Shown here: in pieces, positions 15,202 through 28,466 of the stretch
Layout: every line of letters starts with the position of its first letter
Numbering within the stretch: position 1 is the first letter of the stretch
Origin: a bacterium
Lineage (GTDB): Bacteria > UBP6 > UBA1177
Direction of reading: 5' to 3'
DNA: 39,048 nt
Assembly: GCA_016290135.1 (NCBI GenBank)
Contig: JAEESW010000021.1
Location: forward strand, 1 to 39,048
The notes under the pieces: generated by a model
Told to the model about the DNA's origin: nothing
Database searches by the model: none
Seen by the model: only the letters and a program-made list of their open reading frames with translations
Made by a program: the position numbers and the translations under genes

Positions 15202-15495
15202 ATGAAAGACGAGTTCGAAAGAGAGATCAGATGTGAAAGCGAGGGAAAGATCTGTTACACAGAAAGAGAAGCGGGAAACGCTATCAACGGCGCGAAGCAT
15301 CACGGCAACAGAGCAAAAAAGATTCCGCATAGAAAATATTTCTGCAAAGAGTGCGGCTGCTTCCACCTGACAAGCCAGAAATCAAAGAAAGGCTGCTGTT
15401 CAAAACAGGCTTACGATCAGAAGCGGAACAAGATCATCGCTTTAGAATATAAGAAACTCTGGCGCGAAGAATATCGCTTTCTTTGCGCTGCATAA
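15202..15495 (+). CDS. Small zinc-ribbon-like protein (97 aa), paralogue of 26629-26922
   Basis: A 97-residue basic protein. ATG 15202 is preceded by GAGGAGGG. It has a putative metal site built on CKECGCFHLTS (residues about 49-59), with two further Cys near the N-terminus (IRCESEGKICY) and others after residue 65. The pattern K-I-x-Y near the N-terminus followed by C-x2-C-x2-(W/F)HLTS is seen in small phage- and mobile-element-borne zinc-ribbon proteins. Nucleic-acid binding is plausible but not proven. The C-terminal third is Lys/Arg/Tyr-rich. It is preceded by island promoter copy A and followed after 25 nt by the DUF1566 lipoprotein, so the two are probably co-transcribed. The paralogue at 26629 has the same length and most residues identical. 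Confidence 0.85.
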   Translation: MKDEFEREIRCESEGKICYTEREAGNAINGAKHHGNRAKKIPHRKYFCKECGCFHLTSQKSKKGCCSKQAYDQKRNKIIALEYKKLWREEYRFLCAA

Positions 15496-25033: not shown

Positions 25034-25654
25034 ATGAAAAAAATCTTATTTGTAACACTTCCGCTTAAAGGAAATTTGGAAAAACGCATCTACCCGGTTG
25101 ACGGCAACTCTCTGCTTGAGATCAAGGAGCCGATCTGTTTTGCAGCAACAGCTGCTCTGGTCAGCAAACTTAAAGCTGATGACGAAGTGAAAATCATACT
25201 TATCGAGACAAAAGGCGGCGAAAACGCAGGAAGCGAAAACGCAAAACTTTTTATCGATGAATTGAACCGATTCAACAAATCCGGCGCAAAAATCACCAAA
25301 GAGATCATTCCGACGGCGTTCGATCCTTCAAAAACCAATTTTCAGTTTCTCTTCAAAGCTTTGCTCAAAGAGCTGGAACATGATGCCGAAATTTATGCGG
25401 ACATAACATTCGGTCCGAAAACTCTGACCATGCTTCTGTTTTCTGTTTTTCAGTTCGCCGAGAAATTTTTCAACTGCTCCATAGGTTATATAGTTTATTC
25501 CAAGGTCGAATTCCAAAAGGGTGAAATTGTTAAAGGTTCAGAAATGATCTATGATGTAACTCCTATCTATCTCATGAACACTTTAACTAATTTAATGGAA
25601 GCTCCCGACAGTGACAGTGCGATCAGAACGCTTGAAGCATTGTTTGAGGAATAA
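25034..25654 (+). CDS. CARF-like sensor protein without an effector domain
   Basis: A 206-residue protein that looks like a stand-alone CARF (CRISPR-associated Rossmann fold) domain. It has a Rossmann beta-strand start (KKILFVTLP), a long mid-section, and the motif ADITFGPKTLTM (residues 122-133). The Asp-x-Thr-x-Gly-x-Lys core matches the ligand-site motif of Csm6/Csx1-type CARF proteins, which bind cyclic oligoadenylates. No HEPN, nuclease or HTH domain follows. The start has GAGGTG upstream. It lies 2 nt from the sigma-like gene, so the two are translated together, and the natural reading is that the CARF protein holds or activates the sigma-like protein in response to a nucleotide signal. 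No cas or cyclase gene is in view. CARF assignment rests on the motif and secondary-structure pattern and needs profile confirmation. Confidence 0.7.
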   Translation: MKKILFVTLPLKGNLEKRIYPVDGNSLLEIKEPICFAATAALVSKLKADDEVKIILIETKGGENAGSENAKLFIDELNRFNKSGAKITKEIIPTAFDPSKTNFQFLFKALLKELEHDAEIYADITFGPKTLTMLLFSVFQFAEKFFNCSIGYIVYSKVEFQKGEIVKGSEMIYDVTPIYLMNTLTNLMEAPDSDSAIRTLEALFEE

Positions 25655-25656
25655 CC

Positions 25657-26538
25657 ATGGACGAAATTTCCAACAAAATCAATGAACTTTATGAAGAATA
25701 TGCAAATATTTCAGATGCAGAAAATGCAGAAAAAGAAAAATTGGGGAAACGGCAGAAAATCATTGCTATTGTGTGGCAGTCCAAAAAAAATTACAAAGAG
25801 CGCTCTTTGGAAGTTGTTAAAACGGTCATAGATTCTCTGAAAGACTTTCCTGATTCCGATGACTGCAAAAAAGAAGGAGTGTTGTTCAGCCAGTATCTCA
25901 TATTTTCATTAAACAAGGTGATCAACACGGCAAAAGGCGAAGAAGCTTTAGAGCAAAGAACAGGCCTGTCTATTTCTGACTCGGATCACAGAAAAATACG
26001 CAGAATAAACCATTGCATCAAAGTTTTGCTTAGAATGAACCCTCTTCTGGAAGGAAATGCGATAATTGAGAAAGTAGCTGCAACACTAAAAGAGGACAAA
26101 TCCGAGATAAGAAGTCTTATAAGGCTGGCAAAAAGCGCATCTCTCGAACTTGAAATCCATAATGATGAAGATGATGAAACTGTCCTTGTGGAAGAAACCC
26201 ACGGGGATATGGTTGAAAAAAATCCTGTTGAAGAGATTTGCATTTTGCATGAAAGAGCGGAAAAAATCCTTTCGTACATAGATTCCGAGTGGAAAAAGAA
26301 ATCCGATCCGATGCTTTCGGAACTGCTTACAGTCTTTATTCTTAAACAGGATTTTAACGTTAAAGATTTGGTGAAATATGCTTTCATTGACAAAAAAATT
26401 TGTGCCGCCTATTCCAAAGATCCCAATCATAACCTTCCGCAAGATCAGGAAATCGCTAAGAAATATGAAAAAGACAAATCAATAGCAAGCCGTGCTCGTA
26501 AAGAGTTTCTAACAAAAATAGCTAAATCCAATCTCTGA
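25657..26538 (+). CDS. Divergent sigma70-family-like transcription factor
   Basis: A 293-residue protein laid out like a sigma factor with regions 2-4. Residues about 50-120 resemble region 2 and region 3 start: LFSQYLIFSLNKVINTA corresponds to the FSTYA...I..AI core, then IRRIN. Residues 125-205 resemble region 3: KVAATLKEDKSEIRSLIRLA, then SLELE, an acidic run, and NPVEE, like SLDxP...ED...SPEE in sigma70. Residues 262-290 form a C-terminal helix-turn-helix (QEIAKKYEKDKSIASRARKEF) like region 4. It is too diverged for a confident subgroup. It has an acidic linker at 165-190. The gene follows the CARF gene by 2 nt and is under island promoter copy C. The inference is that it directs RNA polymerase to the GTCAAC-N17-CTTAT promoters; an alternative is a sigma-like DNA-binding regulator that does not bind polymerase. 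Confidence 0.65.
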   Translation: MDEISNKINELYEEYANISDAENAEKEKLGKRQKIIAIVWQSKKNYKERSLEVVKTVIDSLKDFPDSDDCKKEGVLFSQYLIFSLNKVINTAKGEEALEQRTGLSISDSDHRKIRRINHCIKVLLRMNPLLEGNAIIEKVAATLKEDKSEIRSLIRLAKSASLELEIHNDEDDETVLVEETHGDMVEKNPVEEICILHERAEKILSYIDSEWKKKSDPMLSELLTVFILKQDFNVKDLVKYAFIDKKICAAYSKDPNHNLPQDQEIAKKYEKDKSIASRARKEFLTKIAKSNL

Positions 26539-26556: not shown

Positions 26557-26585
26557 GTCAACTCTCCCGTTTTTCACCCCTTATA
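26557..26585 (+). promoter_or_regulatory. Island promoter motif, copy D (upstream of second zinc-ribbon gene)
   Basis: GTCAAC (26557-26562), 17 bp, then CTTATA (26580-26585), with TTTTTC ending at 26575. From CTTATA onward the 35 nt are identical to copy A, while the spacer differs, so the two leaders are related but not a very recent copy of each other. Confidence 0.75.
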
Positions 26586-26613
26586 TGTTGTGTAGGCAGT
26601 TTGATTGACAACA
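26586..26613 (+). promoter_or_regulatory. Inverted repeat TGTTGT-N16-ACAACA in the leader of the second zinc-ribbon gene
   Basis: TGTTGT (26586-26591) and ACAACA (26608-26613) are an exact repeat of the arrangement at 15161-15188. The identical loop sequence suggests selection on the element or gene conversion. Confidence 0.5.
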
Positions 26614-26628
26614 AAAAAGGAGGAAAAC

Positions 26629-26922
26629 ATGAAAGACGGTTTCGAAAAAGAGATCAGATGCGAAAGCACTGGAAAGATCTGTTACAGGGAAAAAGAGGCG
26701 AGAACAACTCTCAACGGGGCAAAACATCATGGCAACAGATCAAAAAAGATCCCTAAAAGAATGTATTTATGCAAAGAATGCGGTTATTACCATCTCACAA
26801 GCCAGAAATCCGAAAACATCAGTTGCTCGAAACGCAATTACAATCAAAAGCGGAACAGAATCATCCTTTTTGAGTATAAAAAACTGTGGCGCGAAGAACG
26901 CTCCCTTTTTTCGGCCGCATAG
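26629..26922 (+). CDS. Small zinc-ribbon-like protein (97 aa), paralogue of 15202-15495
   Basis: 97 residues, the same length as its paralogue at 15202, with most positions conserved (for example IRCES-GKICY, NGAKHHGNR, LCKECGYYHLTSQKS, EYKKLWREE). ATG 26629 is chosen because AAAGGAGG lies 6 nt upstream and the paralogue starts at the same residue; an in-frame codon at 26605 falls inside the inverted repeat. The C-x2-C plus His pattern suggests a single small metal-binding site. It follows the CARF-sigma genes by 90 nt but has its own copy of the island promoter. It is likely controlled together with the paralogue; nucleic-acid binding is conjecture. Confidence 0.85.
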   Translation: MKDGFEKEIRCESTGKICYREKEARTTLNGAKHHGNRSKKIPKRMYLCKECGYYHLTSQKSENISCSKRNYNQKRNRIILFEYKKLWREERSLFSAA

Positions 26923-26965
26923 CATTTTTTTCGCCGCAAACACCTCAGAAAATCCCTTCCTGATC

Positions 26966-27076
26966 GGAATTTTGTGAAAAATTGCTCTAAAACAGCAGGA
27001 ATTTTGTGAAAAAACAGCAAAAAATAACTGGAATTTTGTGAAAATTGTGGTAAAAACTATCGGAATTTTGTGATGG
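26966..27076 (+). repeat. Four direct repeats of GGAATTTTGTGA at exactly 32-bp period
   Basis: Copies begin at 26966, 26998, 27030 and 27062. The first three extend to GGAATTTTGTGAAAA and the last reads GGAATTTTGTGATGG. The intervening A-rich sequences are only loosely alike. The period is close to three helical turns, so all copies face the same side of the DNA. The array ends 10 nt before the ATG of the AAA_14 ATPase, so it covers the promoter and leader of that gene. Confidence 0.9.
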
Positions 27077-27086
27077 AGTTGCGTAA

Positions 27087-28442
27087 ATGACTGAAATACT
27101 TCATAGAAAAATTGATGACTTTCTTCTTGATTGGAAAAATGACCTAGAGAGGCTCCCGCTTATTGTCAAGGGTGCGCGTCAGGTGGGAAAAACTTTCTCG
27201 ATCAGACGTTTCGCTGAAACTTATAAATACTTTGTCGAGATCAATTTTATCGAGGAACCGAAATACAAAAGTATTTTTGCGGGCGGTTATTCGCCTGATT
27301 CGGTAATAAAGGAGATAAGTTTCATAAATCCCGCTTTTAAGTTCGTTCCGAAAGAGACTTTGATTTTTTTCGACGAGATGCAGGCCTGTCCCGACTGTGC
27401 TACTTGCCTGAAATTCTTCAAGATCGATGGTCGTTATGACGTGATCTGCTCAGGTTCGATGCTCGGAATAAACTATAATGAAGTGACTTCCGTCAGCGTC
27501 GGCTACAAGAAGGATTTCGAGATGCATTCTCTCGATTTCGAGGAATTTCTGTGGGCAAAAGGCTTCGGGAAAGATCAGATAGCAACTATTTTCCTACACA
27601 TGAAAAATATTGAGCCTTTTAACGCCAACGAACTCGCGGTGTGGCAGGAAAACTTTACTGAATATATGACTCTCGGCGGTATGCCGGCAGTTGTCAGGAT
27701 GTTTGCGGAGCAGAAAAACTTTTCGGGAACTCTTGAAGCGCAAAGGCAGATCCTTGCCGCATACAAAGAGGACATAACAAAGTATGCTACAGGCCTTGAC
27801 AAAGGAAAAATCACCAATGTTTATGATAACATACCTGTGTTTCTCTCAAAGGAGAACAAAAAATATCAGGTGTCAAAAATCGCGACGGGAGCAAGAAACC
27901 GCGAGTATGCCGGAACGGTCGAATGGCTCCGCGATGCCGGAATAATCAATACTTGTCACTGTCTTGAAAGGCCGGAACTGCCGCTGAAAGGCAACTACAA
28001 GGCGAACGATTTCAGAATTTATTTCCGTGACACGGGGCTTTTGATTGCTTCACTTGACGAGGAGGCTCAGGAAGATCTGCGCCGGAACAAAAATTTCAAT
28101 ATCTACAAAGGCGCAGTTTATGAAAATGTCATAGGCGACATTCTCGCAAAGCAGGGATACGACCTTTTTTACTACAAAGATGAAAAATCGACTGTCGAGA
28201 TGGATTTCTTCGTGCGTGATGCCGATTCCCTTGTTCCGGTCGAAGTCAAAGCGCAGGACAGCGCGACTGCGTCACTGAACAGCCTTATAGAAAAAGAGAA
28301 ATATCACGACATAAAATACGGCATAAAATTCTGTGGCAAAAACATAGGATTCAACGGAAAATTCTACACTTTCCCGCATTTCTGCGCCTTTTTGCTGAAA
28401 AAATGGATTTTTGAGACGAAAATCGCGTCCGATGTGCACTAA
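27087..28442 (+). CDS. AAA_14 / DUF4143 family ATPase
   Basis: A 451-residue P-loop ATPase of the AAA_14 plus DUF4143 architecture, which is widespread, often multi-copy in gut and rumen bacteria, and functionally uncharacterised. The Walker A is GARQVGKT (29-36) and the Walker B IFFDEMQ (93-99), followed by the family motif CSGSMLG and the phrase SLDFEEFLWA. The DUF4143 part covers about residues 190-390 and contains a nuclease-like VEMDFFVRD...PVEVKA (the D...ExK pattern of PD-(D/E)XK folds). There is no strong ribosome binding site before ATG 27087; GGAG lies 11 nt upstream, overlapping the last upstream repeat. Such genes move and duplicate readily. It stands alone, with its own repeat-rich control region. 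Confidence 0.92.
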   Translation: MTEILHRKIDDFLLDWKNDLERLPLIVKGARQVGKTFSIRRFAETYKYFVEINFIEEPKYKSIFAGGYSPDSVIKEISFINPAFKFVPKETLIFFDEMQACPDCATCLKFFKIDGRYDVICSGSMLGINYNEVTSVSVGYKKDFEMHSLDFEEFLWAKGFGKDQIATIFLHMKNIEPFNANELAVWQENFTEYMTLGGMPAVVRMFAEQKNFSGTLEAQRQILAAYKEDITKYATGLDKGKITNVYDNIPVFLSKENKKYQVSKIATGARNREYAGTVEWLRDAGIINTCHCLERPELPLKGNYKANDFRIYFRDTGLLIASLDEEAQEDLRRNKNFNIYKGAVYENVIGDILAKQGYDLFYYKDEKSTVEMDFFVRDADSLVPVEVKAQDSATASLNSLIEKEKYHDIKYGIKFCGKNIGFNGKFYTFPHFCAFLLKKWIFETKIASDVH

Positions 28443-28466
28443 AATCACCGCCAACCACTCAAAAAT

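Follow-up and report, generated by a model that had tools for sequence, protein, structure and literature searches.

What an exactly periodic direct repeat does at the start of a gene for an AAA_14–DUF4143 protein is the question raised by this locus, which lies in a window of 39,048 bp (the whole stretch of DNA analyzed here), contig C36 of a 2.47-Mb genome that is 98% complete. The 12-bp core GGAATTTTGTGA occurs there in four exact copies (26966-26977, 26998-27009, 27030-27041, and 27062-27073) at spacings of 32, 32, and 32 bp, the three spacers are unlike one another, and the ATG (27087-27089) falls inside the fourth 32-bp unit (27062-27093), so that the description given in the initial annotation held; Tandem Repeats Finder reports the array at 26965-27073, with a period of 32 and a score of 101. 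A coding repeat, which that annotation had already excluded, can indeed be ruled out, since the period is not a multiple of 3 and the array lies outside the ORF. The array is beyond chance, because the best-repeat score of the window’s upstream region is 16, above the 99% quantile of 12.5 obtained from 269 further upstream regions in this genome. In the whole genome, GGAATTTTGTGA is found seven times, that is, four times in the window array, twice in a gene-less array (C5:29336/29368, 32 bp apart), and once as a solitary copy, and the reversed reading of the pattern occurs once. The core is thus nearly unique in its own genome and serves no large regulon, a candidate that we ruled out on the grounds of the single exact core outside arrays genome-wide. 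The features of the locus are collected in Table 1.

Table 1. Features of the locus, in positions of the window, and the basis of each assignment
Feature	Position	Strand	Basis
Direct-repeat array, four GGAATTTTGTGA cores, period 32	26966..27073	+	Sequence; Tandem Repeats Finder; core conservation over spacers
Putative extended -10-like element TGGTAAAAA, between cores 3 and 4	27048..27056	+	Inferred from sequence and six-ortholog alignment; no transcription data
Putative Shine-Dalgarno-like GGAG, directly 3' of core 4	27075..27078	+	Inferred from sequence
ORF of 451 aa, AAA_14–DUF4143 protein, PADLOC PDC-S01 (PDLC04786, E 3.4e-148)	27087..28442	+	Pfam and PADLOC profiles
AAA_14 ATPase domain, residues 24-155	27156..27551	+	Pfam; invariant residues in alignment
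Predicted winged-helix region, residues about 236-315, inferred DNA-binding part	27792..28031	+	Secondary structure of AlphaFold2 model; whole-model match to 2qen and 2fna
C-terminal domain, residues 312-451, PD-(D/E)XK nuclease-like	28020..28439	+	E371, D/E373, E386, K388; fold matches weak
Conserved unit, array plus ORF	26966..28443	+	Found in orthologs at unrelated genomic positions
Segment lacking at the syntenic position in relative G008 (97/105-aa gene plus unit)	26575..28455	.	Genome comparison

Our comparison of upstream regions shows that the window array is one case of a family-wide rule, with two to four direct copies of a core, 32 to 33 bp apart, preceding nearly every gene of the clade to which the window protein belongs. 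A best-direct-repeat score was computed on the 200 bp upstream of 104 DUF4143 genes (130 profile hits, of which 15 without a usable Walker A motif or start were removed to leave 115, and a further 11 were dropped as duplicates or for having less than 150 bp of upstream DNA) and of 269 control ORFs (the longest nonoverlapping ORFs of at least 150 aa in 400 kb of the window’s own genome, with 9 family members removed). The best period was 31 to 34 bp in 72 of the 75 genes of the AAA_14–DUF4143 clade of the window protein, compared to 22/269 controls, 3/29 other DUF4143 genes, and 154/1,500 dinucleotide shuffles; when a score of at least 11 was also required, 65/75 clade genes remained, compared to 1/269, 3/29, and 9/1,500, respectively. 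These loci are related by descent and the counts are not independent, the 75 genes falling into 35 clusters at 60% identity (33 representatives with the period, 30 with a score of at least 11) and the 134 units into 40 clusters. A second set, 60 loci picked from the match list of 41 genomes (mostly of the same genus, and likewise not independent; one had no upstream DNA), gave 56/59 units with the period and 54 with a score of at least 11. Among 19 hand-chosen named records (18 of 60 from a plasmid collection and 1 of 12 from a phage collection), the period was present in 14 and a score of at least 11 in 13, the latter including Fusobacteriota, Bacteroidota, Gammaproteobacteria, Actinomycetota, Bacillota, and Chlamydiota; in Runella, the period was present only at a chance-level score. 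The 12 phage-collection records with relatives are all unannotated fecal clones, a scan of IMG/VR with the window protein returned no confirmed relative, and no Archaea appeared among the organism tallies and rows returned by two plasmid searches.

The period is narrowly distributed, being 33 bp in 79, 32 bp in 33, and 34 bp in 6 of the 120 strong repeats, and the copy number is two in 32 units, three in 73, and four in 14. The period was missed at L133, L146, and L147 in the first set (at L133 by the algorithm, although three GGAAWWWTGTG-type sites are present), at L216, L217, and L219 in the second, and in Ruminococcus albus, Fusobacterium vincentii, two Vibrio records, and Bacteroides thetaiotaomicron among the named records; upstream of the B. 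thetaiotaomicron gene, two copies 66 bp apart are visible by eye. These data bear on several claims of the initial annotation. It had held that its reading would be refuted if no homologous gene had such repeats and if protein binding and copy-number change were also absent; the first part of this did not come about, as repeats precede nearly all genes of the clade. The reading of the spacing as about three helical turns, with the sites on one face of the DNA, held comparatively, in that the same spacing of about three turns is found across the clade. A phase-variable leader is unsupported as a general function, given copy numbers of two to four, periods of 32 or 33 bp in 112/120 repeats, and arrays that lie outside the ORF. 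As a separate observation, the other DUF4143 genes (mostly about 380 to 430 aa), only 3/29 of which have 33-bp arrays, are often preceded by palindromes, which reach a score of at least 8 in 14/26 nonredundant genes compared to 8/269 controls and are long and private at L161, L169, L021, and L025; these may represent a second operator style, and some may be terminators. The genome of the Dialister record (G045, locus L133) holds 28 DUF4143 matches in 2.1 Mb, an unusually dense expansion.

Each protein lineage has its own core sequence, which is conserved across phyla together with the protein. The window’s own genome contains 23 DUF4143 matches, and most of their upstream regions, by our reading, have their own repeated words, which differ from one gene to the next (for example, TCTTGATTTGGTGT, AAAACTCGCTTGAAAAA, GTCCAAAAATATGCA, and GGAGATTTTGTGA). 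A search with the window protein in 41 genomes (its own and 40 others) gave matches in 26, and we read the upstream regions of 30 retrieved loci (one holds only a gene fragment and has no upstream DNA); orthologs at least 82% identical keep GGAATTTTGTGA at 32 to 33 bp, and the DNA further upstream diverges. Contig collections added 26 loci from records labeled Treponema/Spirochaetales, Prevotella/Bacteroidales, Bacilli, Lachnospiraceae, Tyzzerella, Dialister, and others. GGAAWWWTGTG sites (at most two mismatches) form a 32/33-bp series in 19/21 upstream regions of proteins 59 to 100% identical, with 43 of 47 spacings equal to 32 or 33 bp, and the remaining two regions, both Prevotella-type, carry the variant CGAAAATGTGA at 32 bp, so that this core has been conserved with its protein across several phyla (orthologs 59 to 95% identical). 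Similarly, Vibrio and Acinetobacter proteins that are 70% identical have a common TTTTATGCGCATAAAA-type core.

Across 2,346 pairs drawn from 69 genes, the more alike two proteins are, the more alike are their cores (Mantel rho 0.31; 0/2,000 permutations as high); the correlation in close pairs exists on the same strand only, and for proteins less than about 40% identical, core similarity hardly exceeds the chance level. Within six close orthologs, 44/48 core columns are invariant compared to 30/60 spacer columns (Fisher P = 1.9e-6), and the core is therefore conserved beyond its spacers, which supports the suggestion, first made from the unlike spacers, that it is under selection. Core similarity correlates best with identity in the winged-helix-turn-helix region (0.306) and little less with that in the AAA domain (0.267), and no residue column exceeded the permutation null in our search for specificity-determining residues (best, 0.194; null 95%, 0.235). 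The DNA-binding part is therefore not located by this analysis. A motif search in 30 cluster representatives found a weak common theme, an A-tract with variable flanks (6.6 bits compared to 4.1 to 4.4 in column-shuffled nulls), whose register is uncertain and from which we draw no claim.

The encoded protein is a member of PDC-S01 by profile, with PDLC04786 covering residues 5-440, that is, most of its length, and with Pfam matches to AAA_14 (E 4.2e-21) and DUF4143 (E 4.3e-29) that are both above the cutoff. In 33/33 aligned proteins, G29, R31, G34, K35, D96, and E97 are invariant, and so are E371, E386, and K388 of the nuclease signature, residue 373 being D or E in all 33. The AlphaFold2 model (pLDDT 87.4; 83.2 for the C-terminal domain alone) predicts an AAA+ core and a winged helix with the overall fold of STAND/archaeal-type ATPases. 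It aligns best in the PDB with the archaeal ATPases 2qen (Z 16.5, rmsd 4.3, 265 residues aligned) and 2fna (Z 15.3, rmsd 3.9, 263 residues aligned), in both of which we take a winged helix to be present; CED-4 and plant NLRs follow, and Avs5 is also among the best aligned. Foldseek with the whole model additionally returned ORC/Cdc6, the maltose-system structure 8bob, and Avs proteins. For the C-terminal domain, its top matches included McrC, DdmD, Can2, and a UPF0102 protein, with E values of 0.003 or weaker and none at or below 0.001, and the match to YraN is weak. Published work describes PDC-S01 as ATPase domains fused to PD-(D/E)XK and as the fourth most common defense system across prokaryotes, with experimental validation pending for most PDC candidates (PMC12988326), and counts 10,358 occurrences in rumen genomes, where it is the most frequent single locus (PMC13356809); PDC-S01 also features in PMC12733099 and DUF4143 in PMC4406477. 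An antiphage role of the window protein remains unproven.

The cores are located in or beside promoter-like sequences. Of 11 loci from Bacillota-type hosts in the window-type ortholog group (related loci and not 11 independent cases), 9 have a core wholly within the −35/−10 spacer of the best promoter-like pair, and in Bacteroidota, a core overlaps a TAnnTTTG box or lies within 15 bp of it in 8/9 loci, the exception being Segatella copri L183; we take these boxes to be the promoters of the Bacteroidota loci, in keeping with what is generally known of these groups. For the window itself, only a weak promoter is predicted, and TGGTAAAAA, as inferred from sequence alone, would be its likeliest −10 element. 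Core 4 ends 13 nt before the ATG; within one ortholog group, the distance from the beginning of the last core to the start codon ranges from 20 to 60 nt. The promoter geometry could fit an activator as well as a repressor.

Taken with the lineage specificity of the cores, the arrangement leads us to propose that the array is a private multisite operator of the gene that follows it. That the encoded protein recognizes the array is well supported by comparative evidence, there being no binding data, and the earlier suggestion of an operator bound by the ATPase/DUF4143 protein is to this extent supported. An operator with autorepression is the probable form, again without binding or expression data; we favor autorepression because the cores sit in or beside promoters, and in the absence of expression data we lean only slightly toward repression as the main effect. 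In this model, two to four cores spaced by three helical turns would present their sites on one face of the DNA, and the AAA+/STAND-like ATPase with its winged helix and PD-(D/E)XK-like domain would bind the copies side by side, one asymmetric core per protomer. The bound protein would cover the promoter or the transcription start and shut down its own gene, the ATP state or a trigger such as phage DNA may release or reassemble it, and private specificity would keep the many paralogs of one genome from cross-regulation.

The array and the ORF have been inherited and transferred as one unit, the mode of movement being untested. Among orthologs at unrelated places, homology begins at 26963-26966, at the first core, and stops close to the stop codon (28429-28443 in comparison with the closest two); at 90 to 94% nucleotide identity, flanks carried along would still show. 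The copies in genomes G009 and G014 lie near the same gene and may trace to one insertion. Relative G008 has the syntenic place without the window segment, and one exact insertion could be resolved, a unit of 1,503 bp in G014 compared to the empty single-copy site in G006, with about 48 bp of target, taken from the 3' end of the preceding gene, directly duplicated at its two edges. Flanking direct repeats with a score of at least 15 were found in 14/131 units compared to 2/1,041 swapped-flank pairs, and with a score of at least 20 in 6 units compared to none; lowering the threshold to 14 gives counts of 18 and 4, with some of these rows being orthologs of each other. The duplications vary from 15 to 66 bp, most units lack one, and no flanking direct duplication was found at the window unit. 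The core is not repeated at the 3' end of units either, the mean percentile there being 0.52 on the same strand and 0.58 on the reverse, compared to 0.5 expected. Whether the array is a recombination site, as the initial annotation had considered, is unresolved, since array and gene move as a unit and the array has not been shown to drive the movement.

In four genomes, an array without the gene sits at the 3' end of the same conserved gene (ybaK-like by eye), and in a fifth, one lies beside a RelE-like gene (named by reading). The gene-less arrays of the window type, at L001 1501-1544 (G000:C5:29336), L105, L106, L107, and L109, abut the 3' end of another gene and carry two cores, or three in L109, and four of these sites look syntenic. 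A gene-less array of the L009 family at L087 17333-17381 (G000:C25:57333), about 4 kb from the L009 array, may be a remnant or a second target. At L015, TTCAACCTGCTTTTT is present on either side of the unit, to the left of its array and to the right of its stop; this sequence is similar to the core of another family, L047/L121, and the unit possibly was inserted into an array of that family.

These transfers raise an alternative, in which array plus ORF constitutes a minimal single-gene mobile element, the array being the end recognized by its own AAA+/nuclease protein and regulation being secondary. Homology that begins with the first core and gives out near the stop codon, the exact insertion in G014 with its target duplication, the excess of flanking repeats over swapped flanks at both the 15 and the 20 threshold, and the persistence of gene-less arrays at several sites speak for it. 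We nevertheless consider it unlikely, as the 3' end has no matching site, duplications are variable in length and missing from most units, the window’s included, cores in or beside promoters better fit regulation, and homologous or illegitimate recombination could equally move the unit. A bolder version, equally doubtful, sees a self-mobilizing single-gene element whose ATPase/nuclease recognizes its own 33-bp-phased array as the element end; it would insert close to the ends of genes, leave target duplications that are long and of variable length, and repress itself through the same sites; were it true, one of the commonest candidate defense genes would at root be a selfish-gene family, each member with a private DNA code.

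Other readings start from the protein, the transcript, or the repeat itself. The array may be a DNA platform that holds the ATPase inactive, or assembles it, until it is titrated off by phage or foreign DNA, on which the nuclease then acts. PADLOC places the protein in a candidate phage defense family, the best-aligned structures include the oligomer-forming STAND proteins CED-4, plant NLRs, and Avs5, and the nuclease signature is conserved; however, the literature searched contains no defense assay for PDC-S01, and titration and nuclease action are without evidence, which leaves this model improbable. Repeats that act in the 5' leader of the mRNA, as binding sites for the protein or a small RNA, would suit the window, where core 4 is so close to the ATG that it may be in the leader, but the last core of the Bacillota orthologs sits within the promoter spacer, so that transcription from that promoter would not include it, and the variable distance to the start codon within one ortholog group also argues against a model that we regard as very improbable. 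Recent tandem duplication without function finds some support in L015, L036, and L122, where whole 33-bp units are identical, spacers included, which indicates that arrays can grow by duplication. Yet the same period in dozens of unlike cores, the conservation of core over spacer, and the conservation across phyla make a functionless origin hardly tenable.

Several known systems resemble the private operator that we favor. The literature on PDC-S01 likewise describes an ATPase fused to PD-(D/E)XK, and the sections bearing on it mention neither upstream arrays nor the joint transfer of array and gene and leave the defense role unproven. MalT and related STAND regulators, which bind tandem boxes, are alike in having a STAND-like ATPase and tandem asymmetric sites, and 8bob is among the Foldseek matches. 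Unlike MalT boxes, the sites studied here precede the protein’s own gene, each paralog has its own sequence, and a nuclease-like domain takes the place of the sensor repeats; with regard to MalT-type activation of other promoters, one GGAATTTTGTGA exists outside arrays in the genome (a sequence count, without expression data). Archaeal Orc1/Cdc6 proteins share the AAA+ and winged-helix architecture (2qby is among the fold matches), and their origin boxes adjoin the initiator’s own gene and are paralog specific. They are not known to have a C-terminal nuclease-like domain, and the window array, in the absence of replication data, shows no sign of an origin. Iteron replicons have direct repeats of about 20 to 22 bp beside an autoregulating rep gene, whereas the window array has shorter cores at longer spacing, and its contig carries rpoB/rpoC-like genes (by eye) and no match to a Rep family. 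Classical insertion sequences have a transposase, terminal inverted repeats, and target duplications of fixed length; with regard to gene content, core position, and duplication length, the units contain only the array and the AAA_14–DUF4143 ORF, do not repeat the core at the 3' end, and have variable duplications. A CRISPR array was ruled out on the basis of the 12-bp core, the two to four copies, and the fixed position before one gene family; the stand-alone CARF gene nearby is not a cas operon.

We found no report of upstream arrays of AAA_14–DUF4143/PDC-S01 genes in the literature searched, which mostly excluded subscription papers, and novelty is therefore unproven; as far as this search goes, what is likely to be new is the three-turn array, family-wide in occurrence and lineage-specific in sequence, together with its transfer alongside the gene. 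A private array offers a predicted DNA ligand for each PDC-S01 protein that can be read from sequence alone, and the many natural protein-site pairs provide material for a recognition code. The array also makes it testable whether these proteins are defense switches, self-repressed nucleases, or small mobile elements. Elsewhere in the window, the stand-alone CARF protein is encoded at 25034-25651 (PADLOC CARF2--CARF E 2.7e-73, Csx1 E 1.9e-41) and is directly followed by a 293-aa ORF (25657-26538) without Pfam, PADLOC, or NCBIfam match, and the two could form a signaling module. Finally, a small gene family (97/105 aa) without family matches is represented at 15202-15495 and 26605-26922 and has several copies in the genome and the genus, one of which accompanies the unit in the segment absent from G008.
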